From Actinomadura flavalba DSM 45200 (GTDB lineage: Bacteria > Actinomycetota > Actinomycetes > Streptosporangiales > Streptosporangiaceae): DNA of 64,000 nucleotides. The notes under the pieces were generated by a model. That model was not told the DNA's origin, did no database searches, and saw only the letters and a list, made by a program, of their open reading frames with translations. The position numbers and the translations under genes were made by a program. The stretch spans positions 496,001 to 560,000 of the forward strand of contig NZ_KB894096.1 in assembly GCF_000374305.1 (NCBI RefSeq). The letters run 5' to 3'. Shown here piece after piece: positions 5,851 to 20,214 of the stretch. How positions within the stretch are numbered: position 1 is the stretch's first letter; each line of letters starts with the position of its first letter.

Positions 5851-6843
5851 TCAGTAGAGCAGCGGGTCGATCGCGACGACCGTGAACAGCAGCGCCAGGT
5901 AGACGTTCGACAGGTGGAAGAACCGCATCGGACGCAGGTGGACGCCGGTGACGCCCGCGCGGACGGCGCGCAGCAGCCGGTGCCCCTCGGCGAGGAACAC
6001 CAGGCCGAGCAGGACGGCGACGGCGCCGTACACCGGCCCCATGCCCGCGACCGGCCACAGCACCAGCGAGCAGGCGACGGTGGCGTAGGTGTAGACGAGG
6101 CTCTCGGTGACGACGCGCCGCTCGGTGGCCACGACCGGCAGCATCGGCACGCCCGCGACGGCGTAGTCCTCGCGGTAGCGCATGGCGAGCGTCCAGGTGT
6201 GCGGCGGCGTCCACAGGAACACGACGCCGAACAGCACGAACGGGGCGACGGCGAGGCTCTCGGTGATCGCGGCCCAGCCGATGAGGACGGGCATGCACCC
6301 GGCGATGCCGCCCCACACGACGTTCTGCGAGGTGCGCCGCTTGAGGATCAGCGAGTACACGACGATGTAGAACAGGATCGCGAAGACCGACAGCGCGGCG
6401 GCCAGCGGGTTCACCGTCAGCGCGAACCCGGCGGTGGACGCGACGGCGAGCGTGACGCCGAAGATCAGCGCGCGGGCCGGGGTGACCTGGTCGCGGGCCA
6501 GCGGACGGCGGCGGGTACGGCGCATCTTGGCGTCGATGTCGCGGTCGATGTAGCAGTTGATCGCGTTGGCGGCGCCGGCCGACATCGTCCCGAAGGCGAG
6601 CGTGAGCAGGACCGTGCCGAGCGGCGGCATGTCCCCGGCCGCCAGGAACATCACCGGCAGCGTGGTGATCAACAGCAGTTCGATCACGCGCGGCTTGGTG
6701 AGCGCGACGTAGGCGCGCACGCTGGCGGCGATCGACGGGCGGCCCGCCGGGACGACGGCGAGCGCGGGCGCCTGCGGCACCTGCTCGTCCAGTTCGACGG
6801 CGCGGGCGTTGCTGAGCAGCGTCACAATCGGGTCCACGTCCAA
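5851..6843 (-). CDS. ctaB: Protoheme IX farnesyltransferase (heme O synthase)
   Basis: UbiA-family prenyltransferase that adds a farnesyl group to heme b to make heme O, the substrate of CtaA. The first Asp-rich motif is NCYIDRDID in the first third, preceded by [14 protein letters not shown], and RTRRRPL follows, all typical of CtaB. Nine or so TM helices; length (about 330 aa) is normal. The longest frame begins with TTG at 6843. A GTG at 6837 or at 6825 are alternatives, none with a clear ribosome binding site, so the start is uncertain. It diverges from tkt across a 455-bp intergenic region, the usual ctaB-tkt arrangement in actinomycetes. Confidence 0.92.
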
Positions 6844-7229: not shown

Positions 7230-7298
7230 CGCGGCCGACCGTCGATGACGCACCGTGTTTTCCATAGACAGTGTTTTCCGGAAGGAGCCTGGCGTTCC

Positions 7299-9419
7299 GT
7301 GAGCAAGGACGACAGCACGTTTGAATGGTCCGACCTGGACCGGCGGGCGGTGGACACGGTCCGCGCCCTGGCCATGGACGCGGTCGAGGAGGCCGGTTCG
7401 GGGCACCCGGGCACGGCCATGAGCCTGGCGCCGGCCGCCTACCTGCTCTTCCAGCGGTTCCTGCGGCACGACCCGACCGACCCGGGCTGGGCCGGTCGCG
7501 ACCGGTTCGTCCTGTCGTGCGGGCACTCCAGCCTCACCCTGTACATCCAGCTCTACCTGTCGGGCTACCCGCTGACGCTGGACGACCTGAAGTCGCTGCG
7601 CAAGTGGGACAGCCTCACCCCCGGCCACCCCGAGCACGGCCACACCGCCGGTGTGGAGACGACGACCGGGCCGCTCGGCCAGGGCATCGCCAACGCCGTC
7701 GGCATGGCGATGGCGGCGCGCCGCGAGCGCGGCCTGTTCGACCCGGACGCCGCGCCGGGCGAGTCCCCCTTCGACCACACCATCTGGGCGTTCTGCTCCG
7801 ACGGTGACATCCAGGAGGGCATCAGCCACGAGGCCAGCGCGCTGGCCGCGCACCAGCGCCTCGGCAACCTGATCGTGGTGTGGGACGACAACCACATCTC
7901 CATCGAGGACGACACCGCCATCGCGTTCTCCGAGGACGTCGGCGCCCGGTACGAGGCGTACGGGTGGGACGTCCACACCGTCGACTGGACCAAGGACGGC
8001 GACTACTCCGAGAACGTCGGCGAGCTGGCGGCGGCGCTGGAGGCGGCCAAGGCCGAGACGGGCCGCCCGTCGTTCGTCAAGCTGCGCACGATCATCGGCT
8101 GGCCCGCGCCGAACAAGAAGAACACCGGCAAGATCCACGGTTCGGCGCTCGGCGCCGACGAGGTCGCCGCCACCAAGAAGGTTCTCAAGCTCGACCCGGC
8201 CAAGACGTTCGACGTTCCCGCCGACGTGCTGGAGCACTCCCACGAGGTGTCGGCGCGCGGCCGCGAGGCGCACGCCGCGTGGCAGGAGACGTTCGACGCG
8301 TGGCGGTCGGCGAACCCCGAGCGCGCCACCGAGTACGACCGCGTCGCGATCCGGGCGCTGCCGGCGGGCTGGACGTCGGCGCTGCCGGAGTTCGAGGCCG
8401 GCAAGGACATCGCGACCCGCGCGGCGTCCGGGCAGATCCTCGCCGCGCTGGCGCCGGTGCTGCCCGAGCTGTGGGGCGGCTCGGCCGACCTGGCCGAGAG
8501 CAACAACACGACGATGAAGGGCGAGCCGTCGTTCGTCCCCGAGGAGTTCCAGACCAAGGAGTTCCCCGGTGGGCCGTACGGCCGCACGCTGCACTTCGGC
8601 GTGCGCGAGCACGCGATGGCGGCGATCTGCAACGGCATCGCGCTGCACGGCGGCACCCGCCCCTACGGCGGCACGTTCCTCATCTTCAGCGACTACATGC
8701 GCCCGGCGGTGCGCCTGGCCGCGCTGATGAAGCTGCCGGTGACGTTCGTGTGGACGCACGACTCGATCGGCCTCGGCGAGGACGGCCCCACCCACCAGCC
8801 GGTGGAGCAGCTCTGGTCGCTGCGGGCCATCCCGGGGCTGGACGTCGTCCGCCCGGCCGACGCGAACGAGACGGTCGTGGCCTGGCGCACGATCCTGGAG
8901 CACACCGACCGCCCGGCGGGCATCGCGCTGACCCGGCAGAAGCTGCCGGTGTACGCGCGCGGCGCCGAGCTGGCCTCCGCCGAGGGCGTCACCAAGGGCG
9001 GGTACACGCTCGCCGACGCCAGTAACGGGCAGCCCGAGGTGATCATCATCGCGACCGGGTCGGAGGTGGAGCTGGCGCTGGAGGCCCGCGCGACGCTGGA
9101 GGCCGACGGCACGCCCACCCGCGTGGTGTCGATGCCGTGCGTCGAGTGGTTCGACGCCCAGGACGACGCCTACCGCCAGCAGGTGCTGCCGCCCGGCGTG
9201 AAGGCGCGGGTGTCGGTGGAGGCCGGGATCGCGCTCGGCTGGCGCGCTTACATCGGCGAGGCCGGGGAAGCGGTGAGCCTGGAGCACTTCGGTGCCTCGG
9301 CCGACTACAAGACGCTGTTCCAGCAGTTCGGGATCACGTCGGAGCGGGTCGTGGCCGCCGCGCGTTCCAGCCTGGTGAAGGCCAACGTCGCCGGGCGCGG
9401 GACGACCACCGGCAACTGA
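7299..9419 (+). CDS. tkt: Transketolase
   Basis: 706-residue thiamine-diphosphate enzyme that moves two-carbon ketol units between pentose, tetrose, hexose and triose phosphates in the non-oxidative pentose phosphate pathway. Visible motifs: [11 protein letters not shown] near the N-terminus (phosphate/TPP region), [19 protein letters not shown] with the following [11 protein letters not shown] (TPP/Mg-binding GDG...N), and the central pyrimidine domain [19 protein letters not shown] with catalytic Glu. The frame runs open upstream to an ATG at 7245, but the ribosome binding site GAAGGAG at 7281-7287 and the family N-terminus point to GTG 7299. tal follows after 49 bp. Confidence 0.96.
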
Positions 9420-9468
9420 AGGGGCGCCCGTCCGCGGCCGGGCCGCGGGCATCCGACGAGAGGAAACG

Positions 9469-10596
9469 ATGAGCGAGATCTTGAAGAGGCTCTCCGACGA
9501 GGGCGTGTCCATCTGGCTCGACGACATCAGCCGCGAGCGGCTGCGGACGGGCAACCTGGCCGAGCTGGTCCGCGACAAGCACGTCGTCGGGGTCACCTCC
9601 AACCCGACGATCTTCCAGAAGGCGCTGGGGCAGGGGTCGGCCTACGACGACCAGGTCCGCGACCTGGCCGTGCGGGGCGTCGACGTGGAGGAGGCCGTGC
9701 GGGCCATCACCACCTACGACATCCGGTGGGGCTGCGACGTCCTGCGGCCGGTGCACGAGCGAACCCAGGGGCTCGACGGCCGGGTGTCGATCGAGGTCGA
9801 CCCGCGGCTGGCGCACGAGTCCGAGCGCACGGCCGCCGAGGCGCGCGCGCTGTGGTGGCTGGTCGACCGGCCGAACCTGTACATCAAGATCCCGGCGACC
9901 GAGGCGGGGCTGCCCGCGATCACGGCGGCGCTGGCGGAGGGCATCAGCGTGAACGTGACGCTGATCTTCTCGCTGGAGCGCTACGGCAAGGTCATCGACG
10001 CGTTCTTCGCGGGCCTGGAGCAAGCGCGCGACAACGGGCACGACCTGACCGAGATCGCGTCGGTGGCGTCGTTCTTCGTGAGCCGGGTCGACACCGAGAT
10101 CGACAAGCGGCTCGACAAGATCGGCTCGGACGCGGCCGGGAAGCTGAAGGCGCAGGCGGGCCTGGCGAACGCGCGGCTCGCGTACGCGCTGTACGAGGAG
10201 AAGTTCGGCGGCGACCGCTGGCAGGCGCTCAAGGACGCGGGGGCGCGTCCGCAGCGTCCGCTGTGGGCGTCCACCGGCGTGAAGGACCCCGACCTGCCCG
10301 ACACGCTCTACGTCGACCAGCTCATCGCGCCCGGCACCGTGAACACGATGCCGGAGGCGACGCTGCTGGCCGAGGCCGAGCACGGCGACCCGCGCGGCGA
10401 CACGGTGACGAACGGCTACGACGCGGCGCGGGCGCACATGGCCGCGCTGAAGGACGTCGGCGTCGACTACGACGACGTGGTGAAGGTGCTGGAGGAGGAG
10501 GGCGTCGAGAAGTTCGAGACGTCCTGGACGGACCTCCTCAAGACCGTCGAGCAGGAACTGAAGGACAAGGCGCCGAAGAAGGCCGGCCCCGCATGA
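9469..10596 (+). CDS. tal: Transaldolase
   Basis: 375-residue class I aldolase-fold enzyme transferring dihydroxyacetone units between sedoheptulose-7-P and glyceraldehyde-3-P. The actinobacterial-type N-terminus ([17 protein letters not shown]) leads into [12 protein letters not shown]. The Schiff-base lysine is in [16 protein letters not shown], followed by [18 protein letters not shown] at 9469 has a GAGAGGAAACG ribosome binding region just before it. The stop overlaps the next ATG (ATGA at 10593-10596), indicating translational coupling with the first PGI-like gene. Confidence 0.96.
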
Positions 10597-12254
10597 CCTC
10601 GGTGGTGACCGCCGGGGGTGTCTCGGTCACCACGCACGGCGTCGTCGTGGACGAGACGGAGACCGTGCTGTCCCGTCTCGTCTCCGACGGGGTCCCGCGG
10701 TCGCTGGGCCGCCGCAGCACGACGCTGTGGGGGCCCGACGCCGCGTCGCTGGCGGCGCGGCGGCTCGGCTGGCTGGACGCTCCCGGGTCGTCCCGGGAGC
10801 TGGCGGCGTCGTTGGGCGTGCTGGCCGAGGAGACCGCCGACCTGACGCGGGTGGTGCTGGCCGGGACGGGGGGTTCGGTCCCGGCCGCCGCCGCGCTGGC
10901 GGCGGCCGCGGGCGCGGAGCTGACCGTCCTGTCCGGCACCGACCCGCAGCGGGTCGCGGCGGTGCTCGGCGACGACCTGGAGCGCACGCTCGTCGTGCTG
11001 CCCGGCGACGCGGGCGGCCGCACCGTGACCGACGCGCTGCGCCGCGTCTTCGAGCAGGCGTTCTGGGAGGCGGGCGTCTCGGGCGCCGACCTCGCGCGCC
11101 GCTTCGTGGCGGTCGCCGAGCCGGGGTCGGCTCCGGCGGCGCTGGCGCAGGAGGCGGGCTACCGGCTGGTGACGGCCGAGCCCGACACCGGCGGGCGGTT
11201 CGGCGCGCTCGGCCCGTACGCGCTGGTCCCGGCGGCGCTGGCGGGCGTCGACGTGGACGCCGTGCTGGACGACGCCGCCGCGCTGCTGCCCGCGCTGGAC
11301 CAGCTCCACGGCAATCCGGCGCTGGCGCTCGGCGCGGCGCTGGGCGCGGCGGGGCTGCGCGGGCGCGACAAGCTCGTCCTGGCCGACCACGGGTCGGGGC
11401 TGCGCGGGCTGCCCGCGTGGACGGCGCAGTTGCTGGCCGAGTCGACCGGCAAGGACGGCCGGGGGCTGCTGCCGGTCGTCGTCGAGGGCGTGGAGGCGCC
11501 GGGGTTCGCGCTCGCGCCGGACATGCGGCGGGTGATCTTCGGCCGCCGCCCGGACGAGCCGGGCCCGGCGCGCGAGGCGGGGCTGAGCGTGGCGGGACCG
11601 CTGGGCGCGCAGTTCCTGCTGTGGGAGTACGCGACGGCGGTCGCCGGGCGGGTGCTCGGCGTCAACCCGTTCGACGCGCCGGAGCTGGCCGAGGTCAGCG
11701 CGACGACGGCGGCGCTGCTGCGCGTCGAGGAGGGCACCGCGCCGACCGTGATCACGCGCGCGCCGATCCTGGTGGACGGCGCGGTCGAGGTGCACGGCGC
11801 CGACGACCTGCTGGCCGACGCCGCCGATCTGCGGGCCGTGTTCGACCTGCTGCTCGACGCGGTCCCGGCCGGCGGCTACCTGGCCGTGGCGGCCTACCTG
11901 GACCCGTCCGGCGACGCGGCGGTCGCGCAGGCGCGTTCGCTGCTGGCGGCGCGGAGCGAGGCGTCCCGGCGGCATCCGGCGCCGGTCACGTTCGGGTGGG
12001 GGCCGGACGTCGTGCACGCGGCGGGCCAGTACCACCGGGGCGGCCCGCAGAACGGCGTCTTCGTCCAGCTCACCGGCGACGTCCAGGCCGATCTGCCGGT
12101 CCCGGGACGCCCGTACACGCTGGGTCAGCTCCAGCTCGCGCAGGCGTTCGGCGATCTGCGTTCGCTGCGCGGGCGGCGGCGCCCGGCGGTGCGGCTGCAT
12201 CTGCGCGATCGTGCCGAGGGCGTGGCGCAGATCATCGAGGCCCTCAAGGATTGA
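10593..12254 (+). CDS. Glucose-6-phosphate isomerase-like protein, paralogue 1 of 3
   Basis: 553-residue SIS-fold protein of the PGI family, closest in layout to the PGI half of actinobacterial TAL-PGI proteins. It keeps the sugar-binding Arg (GGRFGAL, Arg202) and the catalytic Glu (AESTGK, Glu283). The SIS phosphate loop normally reading SKSGTT is replaced by PGDAGGRT (about 137-144), and the NPFDQ...K signature reads NPFDAP (358-363) without the Lys. Direct isomerase activity is therefore uncertain; automated annotation would still call it pgi. The start codon overlaps the tal stop. The second paralogue follows after 89 bp. Position between tal and zwf suggests a role in hexose-phosphate entry to the pentose phosphate pathway, possibly with its sister proteins. 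Confidence 0.8.
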
Positions 12255-12343
12255 CCACGCGCTTGCGGCCATATCGTCACGGAATGGTGGGTTGGGTCGC
12301 GGTTGTCGGTTGAATCCTGGAACGATGGGCTCCGGGAGGTACG

Positions 12344-13993
12344 GTGCCGGGATTCGACGTATTGACGCGCGGCGACGTGCTGCACGCCGCGCTCCAGGCG
12401 CGTGACTACCTGGTGAGCTGCGGCGTGCCCGCCGCGCTGGCGGGCAAGGACCCCCGGCTGTGGGGGCGCAGCGCCGTGGACCACAGCCGGCTCGGCTGGC
12501 TCGACCTGCCGTCGGCGTCGCGCGGGCTCCTCGCCCAGGTCGAGAACCTGGTCGCGGAGGCGCGCTACTCGGGCCTGGACCACGTGGTGCTGCTGGCGGT
12601 CGGCGCCGAGGCGCTGGCCGCGCAGGCGATCGTGGCGGCGCGGCCGCCCGGGTCGGGCGGCGAGCTGACCGTGCTGGACGGCGGCGACACGGCCGGGCTG
12701 GCGTTCGCGCTGGAGCGGCTGGACCGCACGATGGTCGTGCTGGCCAGCAAGTCCGGCGTGTCGCTGGAGGGCGACGCCTACCGGCGGATCTTCACCGCCG
12801 CGTTCCGCGAGCACGGGCTGTCCGAACGGGAGATCGCGGGCCGGTTCCTGGTCGTCACCGACCACGGCAGCCCGCTGCACGGCTTCGCGCGCCAGTGCGG
12901 CTACCGCATCGGCCTCACCGACCCGTACCTGCCGGGGCACTTCGGGGCGCTGTCGGCCTACGGCATCGTGCCGTCGGTGCTGGCGGGCGCGGACGTGGCG
13001 ACGCTGCTGGACGAGGCCGCCGACGTCCTGCCGTCGCTGGGCCGCGACGAGGACAACCCCGGGCTGCTGCTCGGCGCGATCCTCGGCGGCTGCGCGCAGC
13101 AGGGCCCCGAGGGGCTCGCCCGCGACAAGCTGCTGCTGCGCGAGCCCGGCGGCTCCGGGCCGCTCACCGCGTGGATCTCGCAGCTCCTGGCCGTGGGCAC
13201 CGGCAAGCGCGGCCGGGGCATCCTGACCTTCGACAAGCCGGGCTGCCCGATCTCCTTCCCCGACATGCACGGCCTGACGATCAACCCGCAGGGCGCGGCC
13301 ACCGGCGAGGACGACGACACCTCGGTGTGGGGTCCGCTCGGCGCGCAGTTCCTGGTGTGGGAGTACGCCACGGCCGTCGCCGGGTGGCTGCTCGGCGTCA
13401 ACCCGTTCGAGGTGCCCGGCCCGGCCGTGCAGGAGGCCGAGGACGACGCCGCGACGATGCTCCAGACGCCCGGCGGGCGGCCGGAGACGGGCCGTCCGGT
13501 CGTCGTGGACGGCGGCGTGGAGGTCCACACGGACCTGCCGTGGCTGGGCGGCTCCGACCTCGGCTCGGTGCTGGCGATGCTGCTCGACCGCGTCCCGGGC
13601 ACCGGGTACCTGTCGGTGGCCAGCTACCTGTCCGGTGAGTTCTCCGGCCGCTACCTGGCCCCGGCGCTGGCGCGCGGGGCGCGCCGCCCGGTCGCCTACG
13701 GCCCGGGGCCCGGCTATCTGCACGCGACCGGCTCGGTCCACAAGGACGGTCCCGGCACCGGCGCGTTCCTGATCATCACCGGCGACCCGGCGCCCGGCGA
13801 CCCCTACGGCGACCACCCGGTGCCGGGCCGCTCCTACGGCCTCGGGACGCTCCAGCTCACCCGGGGCCTGGCCGAGGCGCGCACGCTGCGGCGCCGGGGG
13901 CTGCCGGTCGTCCACCTGCACCTGCGCGATCCGGTCGAGGGCGCCGGGAAGCTGGCGGAGGCGGCGCGGGCCGTGGCCGTCGCGATGTCGTGA
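12344..13993 (+). CDS. Glucose-6-phosphate isomerase-like protein, paralogue 2 of 3
   Basis: 549 residues, clearly homologous to its neighbours over the full length (compare WGRSAVDHSRLGWLDLP with [19 protein letters not shown] upstream, and [16 protein letters not shown] in both). It retains the SIS phosphate loop as SKSGVSLEG (Ser135-Gly138), but the Arg of GGRF is His199 (PGHFGALS) and the catalytic Glu is Val284 (AVGTGK). The C-terminal signature is NPFEVPG. Its losses are thus roughly complementary to those of paralogue 1. GTG start with GGGAGGT at 12334-12340. The stop overlaps the GTG of paralogue 3. A catalytically altered or regulatory PGI-fold subunit is the best reading. Confidence 0.78.
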   Translation: MPGFDVLTRGDVLHAALQARDYLVSCGVPAALAGKDPRLWGRSAVDHSRLGWLDLPSASRGLLAQVENLVAEARYSGLDHVVLLAVGAEALAAQAIVAARPPGSGGELTVLDGGDTAGLAFALERLDRTMVVLASKSGVSLEGDAYRRIFTAAFREHGLSEREIAGRFLVVTDHGSPLHGFARQCGYRIGLTDPYLPGHFGALSAYGIVPSVLAGADVATLLDEAADVLPSLGRDEDNPGLLLGAILGGCAQQGPEGLARDKLLLREPGGSGPLTAWISQLLAVGTGKRGRGILTFDKPGCPISFPDMHGLTINPQGAATGEDDDTSVWGPLGAQFLVWEYATAVAGWLLGVNPFEVPGPAVQEAEDDAATMLQTPGGRPETGRPVVVDGGVEVHTDLPWLGGSDLGSVLAMLLDRVPGTGYLSVASYLSGEFSGRYLAPALARGARRPVAYGPGPGYLHATGSVHKDGPGTGAFLIITGDPAPGDPYGDHPVPGRSYGLGTLQLTRGLAEARTLRRRGLPVVHLHLRDPVEGAGKLAEAARAVAVAMS

Positions 13994-15561
13994 CGGCCCG
14001 GGAGGTCATGGCGTCCCGCGAGCCGGTCAGCGACGCCGCGTCGGTGACCGCCGGGGACGTCACGGTGACGGCGCGCGGCGAGGTGCGGGCCGCCGCCGAG
14101 CGGATGCTCGGGCGGCTGTGGATCGACCGGATCGCCGAGCGGTTCGCCGCCGGGGACGCGGCGTCCGGCGAGCGGGCGGTGTGCGGTCCGGCCGCGCCGG
14201 TCGACGTCCCGGCGACGCCGCCCGCGCCCGGCGCCGTCGTGGTGCTGGGCGAGGGGCCGAGCGTGCGGGCCGCGGCGCTGCTGGCGCGGCGGTTCGGCGG
14301 CGCGTCCCCGATCGTGGTGGACGGCGCCGAGCCCGGCCCGCTGCGGCGGCTGGCCGACGACCCGATGCGGCTGCGCGAGGCGCACGCCGTCGTCACCGGC
14401 GGCGTGCGGTGCGAACCGGCGCGGCGGGCGTTCACCGGGCTGCTGCGCGCGGCGGGGGTGCCCGCCGCGGAGATCGCCGCGCGGGTGACCGTCGTCGCCG
14501 AACCGGGCTCGGCCGCGGCGGCCGTCGCCGGACGCGAGGGGCACCGGCTGGTGGCGGCGCCCGCCCCGGCGGTGTTCGGCGCGCTGTCCCCGTACGCGCT
14601 GGTGCCCGCCGCGCTCGCGGGCGCGGACCTGACGTGGGCGCTGGAGGAGGCCGCGACGGTCTCGGCCGCGCTGGCGGCGCCGGACGGCAACCCCGGGCTG
14701 GCGCTCGGCGCGGTCCTCGGCGGTGCCGCGCGGGCGGGCCGGGGCGTGGTCGTCCTGGCGGCGTCGCCGGGCACCCCGGCGGGCCTGGCCGAGTGGACCG
14801 CCGAGCTGTTCGCGGGGGCGACGCGCGGGCGGCTGCTGCCGGTCGTGCAGTTCGGCGGGATGCCGCTGCGGCCCGGCCCGGACCGGTTCCTGCTGAGCTT
14901 CGGCGGGCGCCCGCACCAGGACGACGCGACGATCAGCGGCTCCCCCGCCGCGCGGCTGGCCGTCCTGGAGTACGCGGCGGCCGTCGCCGCGCACCTGCTC
15001 GGCGTCGAGCCACCGGTCGCCGAACTGCCCGGGGCCCAGGCGATCGGAACGGTCCACGGCCCGTTCCCCGAGCCGCCGCCCGCCTTCACCGACGGCTACG
15101 GCCGCGACGCCGTCGAGGTCCGCACCCACGACGCGGCGTTCGCGGCGGCCGGGGCACTGCGCCCGCTGCTGGACGAGGTCGCGCGCCGCGCCGGGGACGG
15201 CCATCTGGCGCTCACCGCCTTCCTGGACGCCGATCCCGTGTACGGGCAGGGAACGCGGGTACGGCGCCTGGCCGGGGTGCTGGCGGCCCGCGCCGCCCGG
15301 CCCGTGACGGTCGCCTGGGGTTGCCGTTACCCGGCGATCGGGCATGATCTTTCGGAGAAGGGTGTGCATGTGGTGCTGACGGGGGAGGCGGGCCGCGACG
15401 TCGCGGTGCCGGGCCTGCCGGGGATCGGCCTCGGCCCGGTGCGGCGCGCCGAGGCGGCGCCGCTGGGCGCGGGCGGCGCCCGGCCGGTGGTGCGGCTGCA
15501 CCTGCGCGACCGCGAGGCCGGGCTGCACCGGCTGCTGGAGTGCGCACGGAGCGGAACATGA
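13990..15561 (+). CDS. Glucose-6-phosphate isomerase-like protein, paralogue 3 of 3 (most degenerate)
   Basis: 523 residues. Homology to paralogues 1 and 2 is visible in [32 protein letters not shown], and the C-terminal run VPGLPGIGLGPV...RPVVRLHLRD. The phosphate loop is gone (VVTGGVRCEPA), the Arg position is Val195 (PAVFGAL), the catalytic Glu position is Gly276 (FAGATRG), and NPFDQ is replaced by VEPPVAEL. It is therefore very unlikely to be an isomerase on its own. GTG 13990 overlaps the preceding stop (GTGA); an ATG at 14008 is an alternative but sits only 2 nt after a GGGAGG. The frame is fully open, so it is a maintained gene, not a decayed one. zwf follows after 100 bp. Confidence 0.7.
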   Translation: MTAREVMASREPVSDAASVTAGDVTVTARGEVRAAAERMLGRLWIDRIAERFAAGDAASGERAVCGPAAPVDVPATPPAPGAVVVLGEGPSVRAAALLARRFGGASPIVVDGAEPGPLRRLADDPMRLREAHAVVTGGVRCEPARRAFTGLLRAAGVPAAEIAARVTVVAEPGSAAAAVAGREGHRLVAAPAPAVFGALSPYALVPAALAGADLTWALEEAATVSAALAAPDGNPGLALGAVLGGAARAGRGVVVLAASPGTPAGLAEWTAELFAGATRGRLLPVVQFGGMPLRPGPDRFLLSFGGRPHQDDATISGSPAARLAVLEYAAAVAAHLLGVEPPVAELPGAQAIGTVHGPFPEPPPAFTDGYGRDAVEVRTHDAAFAAAGALRPLLDEVARRAGDGHLALTAFLDADPVYGQGTRVRRLAGVLAARAARPVTVAWGCRYPAIGHDLSEKGVHVVLTGEAGRDVAVPGLPGIGLGPVRRAEAAPLGAGGARPVVRLHLRDREAGLHRLLECARSGT

Positions 15562-15661
15562 CGAATCGGCACGGTGAGCGGACGCCGCGACGGCGGGCTT
15601 GCGAGAGTGGGCACCGACGCCCGCATCGAGGGTCGACAGTGCGAGAAGAGAGGGCGCCCAC

Positions 15662-17194
15662 GTGACGACGACACCCAATCCGCTCCGGGACCCCCGGGAC
15701 AAGCGGCTCCCCCGTGTGGCGGGGCCGAGTGTGCTGGTGTTGTTCGGGGTGACCGGCGACCTGTCCCGCAAGAAGCTGCTGCCGGCGATCTACGACCTCG
15801 CCAACCGGGGCCTGCTGCCGCCGGGATTCTCGCTGGTGGGCTTCGCCCGCCGCGAGTGGGACCACCAGGACTTCCGGCAGATCGCCTACGAGTCGGTCAA
15901 GGAGCACGCCCGCACGCCGTTCCGCGAGGACGTCTGGACGCACCTGGCCGAGGGCATGCACTTCGTCCCCGGCGAGTTCAGCGACCCGGGCGCGTTCGAG
16001 GCGCTGGCGATGGCCGTCAAGGAGCTGGACGAGAGCCGCGGCACCGGCGGCAACTACGCGTTCTACCTGTCGATCCCGCCCAAGTTCTTCCCGCAGGTGG
16101 TCGAGCGGCTGCGCGAGAGCGGCCTGGCCGACCGCGAGGGCGGGCACCCCGGGTTCCGCCGCGTGGTCATCGAGAAGCCGTTCGGCCACGACCTGAAGTC
16201 CGCGCGGGAGCTGAACGCGACCGTGCACCGCGTCTTCCCCGAGGAGTCGATCTTCCGGATCGACCACTACCTCGGCAAGGAGACGGTGCAGAACATCCTG
16301 GCGCTGCGGTTCGCCAACACGATGTTCGAGCCGATCTGGAACCGCGGCTTCGTCGACCACGTGCAGATCACCATGGCCGAGGACATCGGCATCGGCGGCC
16401 GGGCCGGGTACTACGACGGCATCGGCGCCGCCCGCGACGTCATCCAGAACCACCTGCTGCAACTGCTGGCGCTCACCGCGATGGAGGAGCCCACCTCGTT
16501 CAGCGCCGAGGCCGTCCGCGCCGAGAAGGCGAAGATCCTCGCGTCGGTCGTGGTCCCCGGCGACCTGGCGCAGTCCACGGCGCGCGGCCAGTACGCGGCC
16601 GGGTGGCAGGGCGGCGTGAGCGTCCGCGGCTACCTGGAGGAGGAGGGCATCCCCGCCGACTCGCGCACCGAGACGTACGCGGCGGTGAAGCTGGAGATCC
16701 AGAACCGGCGGTGGGCGGGCGTCCCGTTCTACCTGCGCACCGGCAAGCGGCTGAGCCGCCGGGTGACCGAGGTCGCGATCGTCTTCCAGAAGGCGCCGCA
16801 CCTGCCGTTCTCGCACACCGACACCGAGGAGCTGGGGCAGAACGCCCTGGTGATGCGGATTCAGCCGGACGAGGGCATCACCATACGGTTCGGGTCCAAG
16901 GTGCCCGGCACGTCGATGGAGATCCGCGACGTCAACATGGACTTCGCCTACGGCGAGTCGTTCACCGAGTCCTCCCCCGAGGCGTACGAGCGGCTGCTGC
17001 TGGACGTCCTCATCGGCGACCCGCCGCTGTTCCCCCGCCAGGAGGAGGTCGAGCTGTCCTGGAAGATCCTCGACCCGATCGAGGAGTACTGGGCGGGGCG
17101 CGGCAAGGTCGACCAGTACCGCTCGGGCGGGTACGGGCCCGATAGCGCCGACGAACTGATGGCCCGCGACGGACGCGCGTGGAGGCGGCTCTGA
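15662..17194 (+). CDS. zwf: Glucose-6-phosphate 1-dehydrogenase
   Basis: 510-residue NADP-dependent enzyme oxidising glucose-6-phosphate to 6-phosphogluconolactone, first step of the oxidative pentose phosphate pathway. The dinucleotide-binding motif is FGVTGDLSRKKLLPAIYDL near residue 28-46, and the active-site signature RIDHYLGKE carries Asp201, His202 and Lys206. Length is typical. The open frame extends upstream to 15599, but GAGAGG at 15648-15653 sits 8 nt before GTG 15662, and the resulting N-terminus (TTTPNPLRDP) resembles actinobacterial Zwf. The stop overlaps the opcA ATG (TGATG), so zwf, opcA and pgl form a coupled unit; OpcA is required for full Zwf activity in actinomycetes. Confidence 0.97.
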   Translation: MTTTPNPLRDPRDKRLPRVAGPSVLVLFGVTGDLSRKKLLPAIYDLANRGLLPPGFSLVGFARREWDHQDFRQIAYESVKEHARTPFREDVWTHLAEGMHFVPGEFSDPGAFEALAMAVKELDESRGTGGNYAFYLSIPPKFFPQVVERLRESGLADREGGHPGFRRVVIEKPFGHDLKSARELNATVHRVFPEESIFRIDHYLGKETVQNILALRFANTMFEPIWNRGFVDHVQITMAEDIGIGGRAGYYDGIGAARDVIQNHLLQLLALTAMEEPTSFSAEAVRAEKAKILASVVVPGDLAQSTARGQYAAGWQGGVSVRGYLEEEGIPADSRTETYAAVKLEIQNRRWAGVPFYLRTGKRLSRRVTEVAIVFQKAPHLPFSHTDTEELGQNALVMRIQPDEGITIRFGSKVPGTSMEIRDVNMDFAYGESFTESSPEAYERLLLDVLIGDPPLFPRQEEVELSWKILDPIEEYWAGRGKVDQYRSGGYGPDSADELMARDGRAWRRL

Positions 17195-18204
17195 TGAACA
17201 TCGACCTCACCGGGACGAGCACCCGCAAGATCCAGGACGCGCTGACGCAGGCGCGGCACCTGATGGGCGGCCCGGCCGTCGGCATGGTGCTGACGCTGAT
17301 CATCGTGACCGACGAGTCCGCGCAGTACGACGCCGTCCGCGCCGCGACCGAGGCGGCGCGCGAGCACCCCTGCCGGGTGCTCACCGTCATCTCCCGCGAC
17401 GCGCGCGGCAGTTCCTCGCGGCTCGACGCCGAGATCCGCATGGGCGAGACGGGGCCGGGCGAGACCGTGCTGCTGCGCATGTACGGGCCGCTGGCCGAGC
17501 ACGCCGACTCGGTCGTGGTGCCGCTGCTGATGCCCGACACCCCGGTGGTGACGTGGTGGCCGGGCGGCAAGGTGCCCAAGGCGCCCGCGCAGGACCCGCT
17601 CGGGCGGCTGGCGGCGCGGCGCGTCACCGACGCCTACGCCGCCCGCGACCGGCTCGGCACGCTGTCGCGGCTCGCCGAGGGCTACCAGCCCGGCGACACC
17701 GACTTCTCGTGGACGCGCGTGACGTCGTGGCGGTCGCTGCTGGCCGCCGCGCTCGACCAGGACCACGCCGAGATCACCGGCGGCTCGGTGTCGGCCGAGC
17801 CCGACAGCCCGAGCGCGGAGCTGCTGGCGGCGTGGCTGGCGGTGCGGCTCGGCGTCAAGGTGGGCCGCGAGGTGTCGGACGGGCCGGGCATCACCGGCGT
17901 CACGCTGCGGACGGGTGAGGGCGACATCGTCGTGCTCCGCCCGGACGGGCGGGTCGCGACGCTGTCGCGGCCCGGCCAGCCGGACCGGCAGGTCGCGCTG
18001 CACCGGCGTCCGATGTCGGAGCTGCTGGCCGAGGAGCTGCGGCGGCTCGACCCCGACGAGGTCTACCAGGACGCGGCGACCCGGTTCGCCAAGGACCTCG
18101 CGGGCGAGAACGCGCGCGAGGAGTCCCGCGAGCAGGAGGCGCAGGCGTCCGCGCCGGCGCGCAAGGCGGCGTCGCGGAGCCGCAAGAAGGAGGACGGCTC
18201 GTGA
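17194..18204 (+). CDS. opcA: Glucose-6-phosphate dehydrogenase assembly protein OpcA
   Basis: 336-residue cytoplasmic protein that in corynebacteria and cyanobacteria activates or assembles Zwf. Recognised from the family N-terminus (DLTGTSTRKIQDAL), the VLTLIIVTDE strand, the block VVPLLMPDTPVVTWWPG, and the position immediately after zwf. The last 40 residues are a low-complexity, Ala/Arg/Lys-rich tail. The start at ATG 17194 overlaps the zwf stop, with GGAGG (17181-17185) at good spacing; a GTG 15 bp upstream is less likely. The stop overlaps the pgl GTG (GTGA). Confidence 0.95.
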   Translation: MNIDLTGTSTRKIQDALTQARHLMGGPAVGMVLTLIIVTDESAQYDAVRAATEAAREHPCRVLTVISRDARGSSSRLDAEIRMGETGPGETVLLRMYGPLAEHADSVVVPLLMPDTPVVTWWPGGKVPKAPAQDPLGRLAARRVTDAYAARDRLGTLSRLAEGYQPGDTDFSWTRVTSWRSLLAAALDQDHAEITGGSVSAEPDSPSAELLAAWLAVRLGVKVGREVSDGPGITGVTLRTGEGDIVVLRPDGRVATLSRPGQPDRQVALHRRPMSELLAEELRRLDPDEVYQDAATRFAKDLAGENAREESREQEAQASAPARKAASRSRKKEDGS

Positions 18205-18953
18205 GCGCGGCCCCTTCGGTGCTGGTGCACCGCGACCAGGAACTGCTGGCGCACGCGGCGGCGGCGCGGCTCGTCGGCGCGGTCGCCGACGCGCAGGCCG
18301 CGCACGGCACGGCGTCGGTGGTGCTGACCGGCGGCGGCGTCGGCACGGCGGTGCTGGCCGCGCTGGCGGCGAGCCCCGCGCGGGACGCGATCGACTGGCG
18401 CCGGGTGGACGTGTGGTGGGGCGACGAGCGGTTCCTGCCCGCCGGAGACCCCGAGCGCAACGAGACCGGCGCGCGGCTGGCGCTGCTCGACCACGTCGAC
18501 GTGGACCCGGCGCGGGTGCACGCGATGGCCGCGTCCGACGGCCCGGACGGCGACGACGCCGACAAGGCCGCCGAACGGTACGCGGCGGAGCTGGCGGCGG
18601 CCGTCCGGCCGGGCGAGCCGGGGCCGGTGCCCGCGTTCGACGTGGTGCTGCTCGGCGTCGGGCCGGACGCGCACGTCGCGTCGCTGTTCCCGGGGCTGCC
18701 GGGCACCCGCGACGGCCGTCCGGTGGTGGCGGTGCGCGACGCGCCCAAGCCGCCGCCGACGCGGATCTCGCTGACGTTCCCGTCGATCCGGTCGGCGGCC
18801 GAGGTGTGGCTGCTGGCGGCCGGAAGCGGGAAGGCCGAGGCGGTGCGCAAGGCGCTGACCGAGACCGGGCCGGTGGGCGTCCCGGCGGCGGGGGCGCGGG
18901 GCCGCCGCCGCACGCTCGCCCTGCTGGACGCCGAGGCCGCCGCGGAGCTGTAG
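18201..18953 (+). CDS. pgl: 6-Phosphogluconolactonase (DevB/SOL type)
   Basis: 250 residues; hydrolyses 6-phosphogluconolactone made by Zwf. Family features seen are VVLTGGGVGTAVL near residue 35, WRRVDVWWGDERFLPAGDPERNE (the classic W-GDER segment), DVVLLGVGPDAHVASLFPG, and RISLTFPSIRSA. It overlaps opcA by 4 bp and closes the pentose-phosphate operon. No gene for 6-phosphogluconate dehydrogenase follows; it must be elsewhere. Confidence 0.96.
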   Translation: MSAAPSVLVHRDQELLAHAAAARLVGAVADAQAAHGTASVVLTGGGVGTAVLAALAASPARDAIDWRRVDVWWGDERFLPAGDPERNETGARLALLDHVDVDPARVHAMAASDGPDGDDADKAAERYAAELAAAVRPGEPGPVPAFDVVLLGVGPDAHVASLFPGLPGTRDGRPVVAVRDAPKPPPTRISLTFPSIRSAAEVWLLAAGSGKAEAVRKALTETGPVGVPAAGARGRRRTLALLDAEAAAEL

Positions 18954-19038
18954 GCCGTTTTCTCCCCGCTCATGCGCATACTCCGGTGGGCGGGGGTACG
19001 ACCCTTCCACGTTCGGCCGAACCGTGAGGAGGGGAACC

Positions 19039-20214
19039 GTGCGGAGCAGACGGGCGGGAACGGCGGTCGCGGGGGCGGGGATTCTGCTGCTGAGCGGTTG
19101 CACGGGCGGCGGTCCGGGAGGCGTCGGGGCGAAGGACGAACCGGCCGCTCCCCCGGCCATCACCCCCGCCAACGGCACGAAGAACGTCGAACCGGACAAG
19201 CCGGTGACCGTCCGGGTCCGGGACGGGAGGCTGACCGAGGTGACCGTCGCGGACCCGCAGGGCCGCAAGGCGGCCGGGAAGTTGAGCGGCGACGGGAAGT
19301 CCTGGACGACGACGTGGGGCGTGCGGCCGTCCGCCACCTACACGGTCACCGCCAAGGGCGAGGCCGACGGCAAGCCGGTCACCGCGACGTCGACGTTCAC
19401 GACGCTGAAGCCGGCGAAGAAGCTGGAGAGCGGCATGTCGCCGCTGGACGGCGAGAAGGTCGGCGTCGGCATGCCGGTGCAGCTCATGCTGTCGCAGCCG
19501 GTCGCGGGCAAGGAGGCGCGGGCGGCGGTCGAGCGGCGGCTGGAGGTGCGGATGTCCCGGCCGGTGCCGGGCGCCTGGCACTGGATCAACGACCGCGAGG
19601 TGAACTTCCGGCCGCAGGAGTACTGGCCGTCCGGGCAGAAGGTCCGCGTCACCGCGCACCTGGCCGGGGTGAAGGTCGCTAACGGCGTGTACGGGACGAA
19701 GGACCGCACGCTGGACTTCACGGTCGGGGACCGGCACGTCACCACGGTGGACGCCAAGAAGTTCCGCGCGACCGTCACCGACGGCGGGAAGACCGTCCGC
19801 ACGATCAAGGTCAGTCTCGGCAAGCCCGGCGACGACACCTACAGCGGGACGATGATCGCGCAGGAGAAGAACCCGGCGATGGTCATGGACTCGGCCACCA
19901 CCGGCAACCCGGGCGAGTACCGGACGCCGACCAAGTGGAACGTCCGGATGACCTACAGCGGCACGTTCTTCCACTCCGCGCCGTGGTCCACCGGCTCGCA
20001 GGGGCGCGCCAACGTCAGCCACGGCTGCCTCAACGCCTCCCCCGCCGACGCCAAGTGGTTCTACGACTTCACCCGGCGCGGCGACGTCATCCAGGTCAGC
20101 GGCACCACGCGGAAGCTGAAGTTCGGCAACGGGCCGACGCCGTGGGCCAAGTCGTGGCAGGACTGGCTGGCGGGCAGCGCGCTCGGGCAGCCGGTCACGC
20201 CCGGCGGGCTGTGA
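19039..20214 (+). CDS. L,D-transpeptidase lipoprotein with Ig-like domains and YkuD catalytic domain
   Basis: 391 residues. The N-terminal lipoprotein signal ends in LLLSGC with the modified Cys at about residue 21. Two beta-rich Ig-like segments follow (about 40-130 and 130-230), then a YkuD domain. The catalytic set is His312 (TFFHSAPW) and Cys330 in NVSHGCLNAS, the normal HxnSHGC motif. These enzymes make 3-3 crosslinks in peptidoglycan outside the cytoplasmic membrane; this architecture is that of mycobacterial LdtMt2-like proteins. GTG 19039 is preferred over GTG 19024 because the ribosome binding site GAGGAGGGG lies between them. It is separate from the pgl operon. Confidence 0.93.
   Translation: MRSRRAGTAVAGAGILLLSGCTGGGPGGVGAKDEPAAPPAITPANGTKNVEPDKPVTVRVRDGRLTEVTVADPQGRKAAGKLSGDGKSWTTTWGVRPSATYTVTAKGEADGKPVTATSTFTTLKPAKKLESGMSPLDGEKVGVGMPVQLMLSQPVAGKEARAAVERRLEVRMSRPVPGAWHWINDREVNFRPQEYWPSGQKVRVTAHLAGVKVANGVYGTKDRTLDFTVGDRHVTTVDAKKFRATVTDGGKTVRTIKVSLGKPGDDTYSGTMIAQEKNPAMVMDSATTGNPGEYRTPTKWNVRMTYSGTFFHSAPWSTGSQGRANVSHGCLNASPADAKWFYDFTRRGDVIQVSGTTRKLKFGNGPTPWAKSWQDWLAGSALGQPVTPGGL

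Follow-up and report, generated by a model that had tools for sequence, protein, structure and literature searches.

The operon of pentose-phosphate genes in Actinomadura flavalba DSM 45200 carries three consecutive full-length genes of the phosphoglucose isomerase (PGI) family, here called P1, P2, and P3, between tal and zwf. They lie in a stretch of 64,000 nucleotides (contig NZ_KB894096.1, positions 496,001 to 560,000 of the forward strand) that we analyzed as a whole and refer to as the window. On balance, we favor the view that all three are PGI-derived pseudoenzymes, that the isomerase reaction is performed by a canonical PGI encoded elsewhere in the genome, and that P2 is kept for a non-catalytic role near Zwf, OpcA, and Tal. 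PGI is a textbook housekeeping enzyme, and it is well established that enzyme duplication can give rise to pseudoenzymes. Here, one PGI type appears to have repeatedly lost catalysis once a second PGI shared the genome, yet stayed in its operon under selection.

Catalytic residues of P1, P2, and P3

An earlier reading of this DNA from its sequence only (the sequence-only reading) had proposed three PGI-family paralogues at this place, and that assignment holds. All three frames are open, their products share 42-46% identity with each other, and they match the PGI half of the NCBIfam family PRK09533 (NF007080, TAL/PGI) far above chance (P1, E = 7e-93; P2, 7e-65; P3, 2e-17), with scores that fall under a 712-bit cut-off set for a fused protein of 949 residues. 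The transaldolase fusion or neighborhood that characterizes PRK09533 is found here, too, with tal adjoining P1 in the window and lying upstream throughout the genus. By contrast, P1-P3 gave no match to the canonical PGI family of Pfam (PF00342) at E < 1, and the canonical gene is its sole match in the genome. AlphaFold models of P1 and P2 (pLDDT 90.2 and 91.7) both match PGI structures (1zzg, TM 0.72 by target length) and thus place these two proteins in the PGI fold, to which P3 is assigned by sequence.

In classical PGIs, the phosphate loop, Arg, Glu, and Lys form the pocket of one subunit, and the ring-opening His alone comes from the dimer partner (PMC8354745). At least two of these five elements are missing from each of the paralogues. 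The positions of rabbit Arg272, Glu357, and Lys518 are occupied by Arg, Glu, and Ser in P1, by His, Val, and Glu in P2, and by Val, Gly, and Gly in P3, i.e., the catalytic Lys is gone from all three (Ser369 in P1, Glu366 in P2, Gly348 in P3). Intact relatives have a segment with the ring-opening His that reads LHSTGQYHKGGP; P1 (HAAGQYHR) and P2 (LHATGSVHK) retain this segment, and P3 does not. P1 therefore retains Arg202, Glu283, and the C-terminal His segment and lacks the phosphate loop and the catalytic Lys, while P3 has Val195, Gly276, and a deleted loop, so that Arg, Glu, Lys, and the His segment are all missing. The Glu column of P3 does hold Glu in 17 of 27 species, yet the rest of the site is absent. 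Every residue call of the sequence-only reading proved correct (Arg202 and Glu283 without SKSG in P1; SKSG at 135-138, His199, and Val284 in P2; Val195, Gly276, and no loop in P3). Judged by these residues, none of the three would be a functional PGI able to isomerize glucose-6-phosphate, and the loss of catalytic residues from a protein that is itself conserved is the sequence hallmark of a pseudoenzyme.

Conservation scored over 50 P2 orthologues indicates that the pocket of P2 is remodeled rather than merely broken. From the set conserved in intact relatives, P2 retains Ser135, Lys136, Gly138, Glu142, Thr172, Asp173, Asp193, and Pro194, and it also retains His460 and His466; SKSG is kept, but the Ser of the GGS motif and the TT of an SKSGTT-type loop are not. 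New residues fixed in all 50 orthologues are His199, Glu366, Pro197, Tyr206, Thr192, Leu196, and Arg507; His309 is likewise fixed, but is also seen in 14 of 30 single-copy relatives. The equivalents of P2 positions 89 and 135-137 coordinate phosphate in the PGI of Bdellovibrio (PMC8354745), and the acid that replaces Ser at position 89 therefore probably alters or closes the phosphate site.

In PGIs of the tal-linked type, the ring-opening His segment seems to lie at the C-terminus, beyond the helix of the catalytic Lys, in swapped order compared to classical PGIs. Profile matches to classical PGIs end at position 302-303 and restart at 364-376, and hhalign places the C-terminal segment on the His region of short classical PGIs in the expected register with P = 0.0066 despite a probability of just 5.7%, so this relocation is moderately supported. 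A profile search of PDB sequences did not find the C-terminal segment, and no solved structure of the tal-linked type was found by sequence. The region that shows the swapped order comprises P1 residues 413-553 and their equivalents in all tal-linked relatives.

Canonical PGI and the fate of the operon gene

About 370 kb from the operon, the genome encodes a canonical PGI in which every catalytic motif is present (G000:C4:134736-136220). Canonical PGI genes were also found in A. hibisca and all 38 further Actinomadura genomes tested, intact where examined; the coexisting canonical PGIs keep their catalytic motifs in the 18 genomes examined, 16 of which have the His motif as written. At single-copy loci in the same place of other actinobacteria (n = 30), the loop, Arg, and Glu of the operon gene are invariant and canonical PGI is absent from most genomes. 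Of 27 genomes devoid of the operon gene, in turn, 26 carry a canonical PGI, the exception being a genome of 1.4 Mb. Taken together, these patterns identify the operon gene as the PGI of single-copy organisms.

Across 88 genomes, canonical PGI is present next to a decayed P1-type operon gene in 40 and next to an intact one in 9, while it is absent from 38 genomes with an intact and from one with a decayed operon gene. In other words, the operon gene is decayed in 40 of 49 genomes with canonical PGI and intact in 38 of 39 without it. The one decayed gene without canonical PGI (G148, locus L109) comes from an assembly that is 93% complete, and a congener (G171) has canonical PGI; the gene may simply be missing from the incomplete assembly.

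Two further genera, in which a single tal-linked gene has decayed independently beside a canonical PGI, bear on what is preserved during decay. Genus g25 belongs to the same family but is unrelated to Actinomadura (L156-L162) and has one operon copy, decayed in five members and intact in two, with canonical PGI in 7 of 7. Its C-terminal segment with LHSTGQYHKGGP is better conserved than the N-terminal pocket (0.87-0.96 versus 0.66-0.82). Genus g73 (L152-L153), which is nested within the P1 clade of Actinomadura, has one decayed P1-type gene and a canonical PGI but no P2. Both cases suggest that the C-terminal segment is conserved for a reason independent of P2, which favors a shared non-catalytic role. 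Holding both intact and decayed members, g25 is well suited to studying the transition. The canonical PGI motif reads SKTFGT in Actinomadura and SKTFTT in g25 and g73 (L164-L179 compared with L001), a difference that may point to more than one origin of the second PGI.

In a tree of the family, P1, P2, and P3 form one clade each, with weak support for P1, in which a close genus is nested. Beyond Actinomadura, several other genera also have P2 and P3; their P1 is still intact, and their P2 is already devoid of Arg and Glu. In Actinomadura, the loop of P1 disappeared at a later stage, and in most species so did Glu; loop, Arg, and Glu coexist only in the P1 of A. hibisca and G024, and neither P1 nor P2 has the catalytic Glu in 29 of 37 Actinomadura genomes. 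The seemingly complementary residues in the window are thus a snapshot of two separate losses. In the assembly of Actinomadura sp. J1-007 (L100 and L064), both P1 and zwf are broken into two frames, probably by sequencing errors.

Retention of the paralogues and possible roles

All 40 Actinomadura loci contain P2, and 38 contain P1, while P3 is absent from around 15 of 40, some of them truncated by contig ends. All three genes occur together in at least 24 loci, the window among them. Ratios of non-synonymous to synonymous substitution rates (dN/dS) pooled over close pairs are 0.28 for P2 (range about 0.1-0.28), 0.34 for P1, and 0.43 for P3; medians over all pairs are 0.29 for tal, 0.20 for zwf, and 0.36 for opcA. 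Relative to zwf, the median dN of P1 is 3.9 in Actinomadura versus 1.8 in genera with intact P1, and that of P2 is 2.6 versus 2.8.

In the immediate relatives of the window the picture is different for P1 and P3. Only P2 is left in G011 (genus Actinomadura) and A. rayongensis (G017) after loss of the other two, the P1 of A. atramentaria is badly eroded (dN/dS of 0.65 against the P1 of the window), and the P3 of the window sits on the longest branch of all (0.85). In this clade, P1 and P3 thus seem to be heading out, and P2 is the selected part. The concern that the paralogues are species-specific decaying duplicates is consequently half borne out: in the clade of the window, P1 and P3 are undergoing decay, but the trio is not species-specific and is under purifying selection. 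With intact genes of this distribution under such selection, a non-catalytic regulatory or scaffold role, as the sequence-only reading had considered in connection with Zwf and OpcA, stays conceivable.

In the scenario that we favor, for which sequence comparison supports each step up to the retention of pseudoenzymes, the TAL/PGI-type PGI of the operon would have been the original PGI of the cell. Duplication before the genus Actinomadura would have produced P2 and P3; catalysis would have been lost from both of these but preserved in P1. Within the lineage of Actinomadura, a canonical PGI would then have come to coexist, and P1 would have lost its N-terminal pocket. The proteins would have been retained as pseudoenzymes, P2 most strictly, with Ser-Lys, His199, Glu89, and Glu366 as the core of its rebuilt pocket. 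By analogy to the regulatory protein GKRP, P2 (with P1 and P3 where they persist) may serve as a non-catalytic subunit that binds a ligand or acts as a scaffold for Zwf-OpcA and Tal, and its role would probably be regulatory or structural, not that of an isomerase. A more far-reaching proposal, which we offer tentatively as a possibility, is that P2 is a regulatory subunit, so far undescribed, of the enzymes of the oxidative pentose-phosphate pathway, i.e., a pseudo-PGI that uses its remodeled isomerase pocket to read a metabolite and sets the activity of Zwf-OpcA (or Tal), with P1 and P3 as partly redundant further subunits; more generally, a hidden non-catalytic role could hold the tal-linked PGI of actinobacteria in its operon even when its catalytic function has been displaced.

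Several observations weigh against this scenario. The association between decay and canonical PGI comprises about 3-5 independent events, and a tree-based sign test is not significant; the pattern is strong, yet independent changes are too few for a significant phylogenetic test. P2 is not indispensable in general, given that g73 is without it and many genera of the family are without any operon copy. Moreover, Glu89 at the phosphate-binding place of P2 speaks against ordinary binding of a hexose phosphate.

The main rival to a non-catalytic role is that P2 has become a new enzyme whose rebuilt pocket acts on a sugar of the pentose-phosphate pathway or a derivative. Such a change of function could account for the several pocket residues that were each swapped for one fixed residue in all orthologues with Ser135, Lys136, His460, and His466 retained, and the dN/dS of P2 lies within the range of its enzyme neighbors. 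However, there is no candidate substrate, the place of the base Glu is variably taken by Val, Thr, or Ala so that no single residue replaces it, and the Ser of the phosphate site has turned acidic. We regard a new activity as unlikely, though it deserves to be taken seriously.

Alternatively, the duplicates could be neutral or near-neutral leftovers that are redundant beside the canonical PGI and drift toward loss. The long branches of P1 and P3 in the clade of the window, their absence from G011 and A. rayongensis, and the patchy occurrence of P3 would fit, but the presence of P2 at every Actinomadura locus with its frame kept, its low dN/dS in close pairs, and its fixed derived residues would not, and P1 retains 94% of the conserved C-terminal positions. 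Drift as the full explanation thus appears quite improbable.

An idea with still narrower footing is a composite site in a heterodimer, where the N-terminal pocket of P2 and the C-terminal His segment of P1 would form a new binding or catalytic site in trans, in keeping with the origin of the ring-opening His of classical PGIs from the dimer partner (PMC8354745). Decayed P1 proteins have kept 0.73 of conserved positions in the N-terminal pocket versus 0.94 in the C-terminal segment and P2 shows the reverse (0.70 versus 0.63; interaction permutation p = 0.00015). This idea is weakened because g25 shows the same loss of the N-terminal and retention of the C-terminal part with a single gene and no P2. 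In addition, the lineages of G011 and G017 retain P2 alone, and action of the His segment in trans in the tal-linked type is an extrapolation from classical PGIs, all of which makes a composite site very doubtful.

We rejected the hetero-oligomer with restored PGI activity that the sequence-only reading had considered, and which we see as having next to no chance, because Arg and Glu of P1, SKSG of P2, and the Glu kept by P3 in many species would have to be combined across subunits although loop, Arg, and Glu belong to a single subunit's pocket (a caveat already raised in that reading and in agreement with PMC8354745), Glu is missing from P1 and P2 in most species and comes with nothing else of the site in P3, the catalytic Lys is missing from all three proteins of the window, and an intact canonical PGI is present in this genome.

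Operon layout and known systems

The gene order is tkt-tal-P1-P2-P3-zwf-opcA-pgl in the window and tkt-tal-P-zwf-opcA-pgl throughout the compared loci (Table 1). The frames are intact, as the sequence-only reading had stated, but its claim that all are translationally linked applies only to tal/P1 and P2/P3, which overlap by 4 bases; P1 and P2 are separated by 89 bp and P3 and zwf by about 100 bp, so not all genes are translationally coupled. A scan of positions 9300-15800 revealed no promoter-like and no terminator-like site in the intergenic gaps. The true start of zwf is probably a GTG near 15662, as the alignment with relatives begins at residue 19 of the open reading frame (ORF). Downstream of pgl, a lipoprotein-like ORF (19024-20214) has an L,D-transpeptidase-like SHGCLN motif when its translation is read by eye, and a divergent ORF on the minus strand upstream of tkt (5851-6843) resembles a membrane prenyltransferase, CtaB-like by eye.

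Table 1. Genes of the operon and sites within P1 and P2 (window coordinates).
Feature	Position	Strand	Remarks
tkt, transketolase	7245..9419	+	Pfam Transketolase_N/pyr/C
tal, transaldolase	9469..10596	+	Pfam TAL_FSA; stop overlaps P1 start (ATGA)
P1, PGI-like paralogue 1, 553 aa	10593..12254	+	Open, full-length; putative retained pseudoenzyme
P1 residues 136-147	10998..11033	+	Remnant of SKSGTT phosphate loop, by alignment
P1 residues 465-492	11985..12068	+	C-terminal segment with ring-opening His; conserved in other species whose P1 has decayed
P2, PGI-like paralogue 2, 549 aa	12344..13993	+	Putative conserved pseudoenzyme with fixed new pocket residues
P2 Glu89	12608..12610	+	Replaces phosphate-binding Ser of GGS motif; Asp/Glu in 50/50
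P2 residues 135-138, SKSG	12746..12757	+	Ser-Lys and Gly in 50/50
P2 His199	12938..12940	+	In place of catalytic Arg; His in 50/50
P2 Val284	13193..13195	+	In place of catalytic base Glu; Val/Thr/Ala/Cys in 50/50
P2 Glu366	13439..13441	+	In place of catalytic Lys; Glu in 50/50
P3, PGI-like paralogue 3, 523 aa	13990..15561	+	Open, full-length; 4-base overlap with P2 (GTGA)
zwf, glucose-6-phosphate dehydrogenase ORF	15599..17194	+	Pfam G6PD_N/G6PD_C
opcA, G6PDH assembly/allosteric subunit	17179..18204	+	Pfam OpcA_G6PD domains
pgl, 6-phosphogluconolactonase	18201..18953	+	Pfam PF01182

In the open-access literature that we searched, we found no description of these paralogues or of a conserved tandem PGI-derived set in a pentose-phosphate operon with recurrent loss of catalysis beside a second PGI. 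The situation amounts to a natural experiment in which catalytic and non-catalytic roles of a central enzyme can be told apart. It also has a practical side: where these genomes have a glucose-6-phosphate isomerase annotated between tal and zwf, metabolic models of antibiotic-producing actinomycetes should leave that gene out of the PGI count.

Among known systems, the PGI half of TAL/PGI proteins (NF007080, PRK09533) is the nearest family of P1-P3 and shares the transaldolase neighbor and, in intact relatives, the C-terminal LHSTGQYHKGGP segment, but the genes described here are unfused, come in three copies, and have each lost the catalytic set. The single-copy tal-linked PGI of other Actinomycetota is the orthologue of P1 in the same place of the operon; unlike here, SKSG, Arg, and Glu are invariant there, Lys and the His of the LHS motif are conserved at 95% or more among intact sequences, and canonical PGI is mostly lacking. 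Canonical PGIs (PF00342; those of rabbit, E. coli, and L001 in this genome) have the same fold and the same order of phosphate loop, Arg, and Glu, whereas P1-P3 have no Pfam match and the His segment of the tal-linked type is C-terminal instead of following directly after Glu. GKRP has a SIS fold with a buried sugar-phosphate site and regulates glucokinase (PMC4109836). It is thus a regulator with a sugar-isomerase fold that acts on a sugar-handling enzyme, and the analogy to P2 is one of working mode only, with the fold class as shared ground. Finally, OpcA, also encoded in this operon, modulates Zwf without being catalytic itself, much as we envisage for P2, but it belongs to other Pfam families (OpcA_G6PD domains) and shows no similarity to P1-P3 that we could see.

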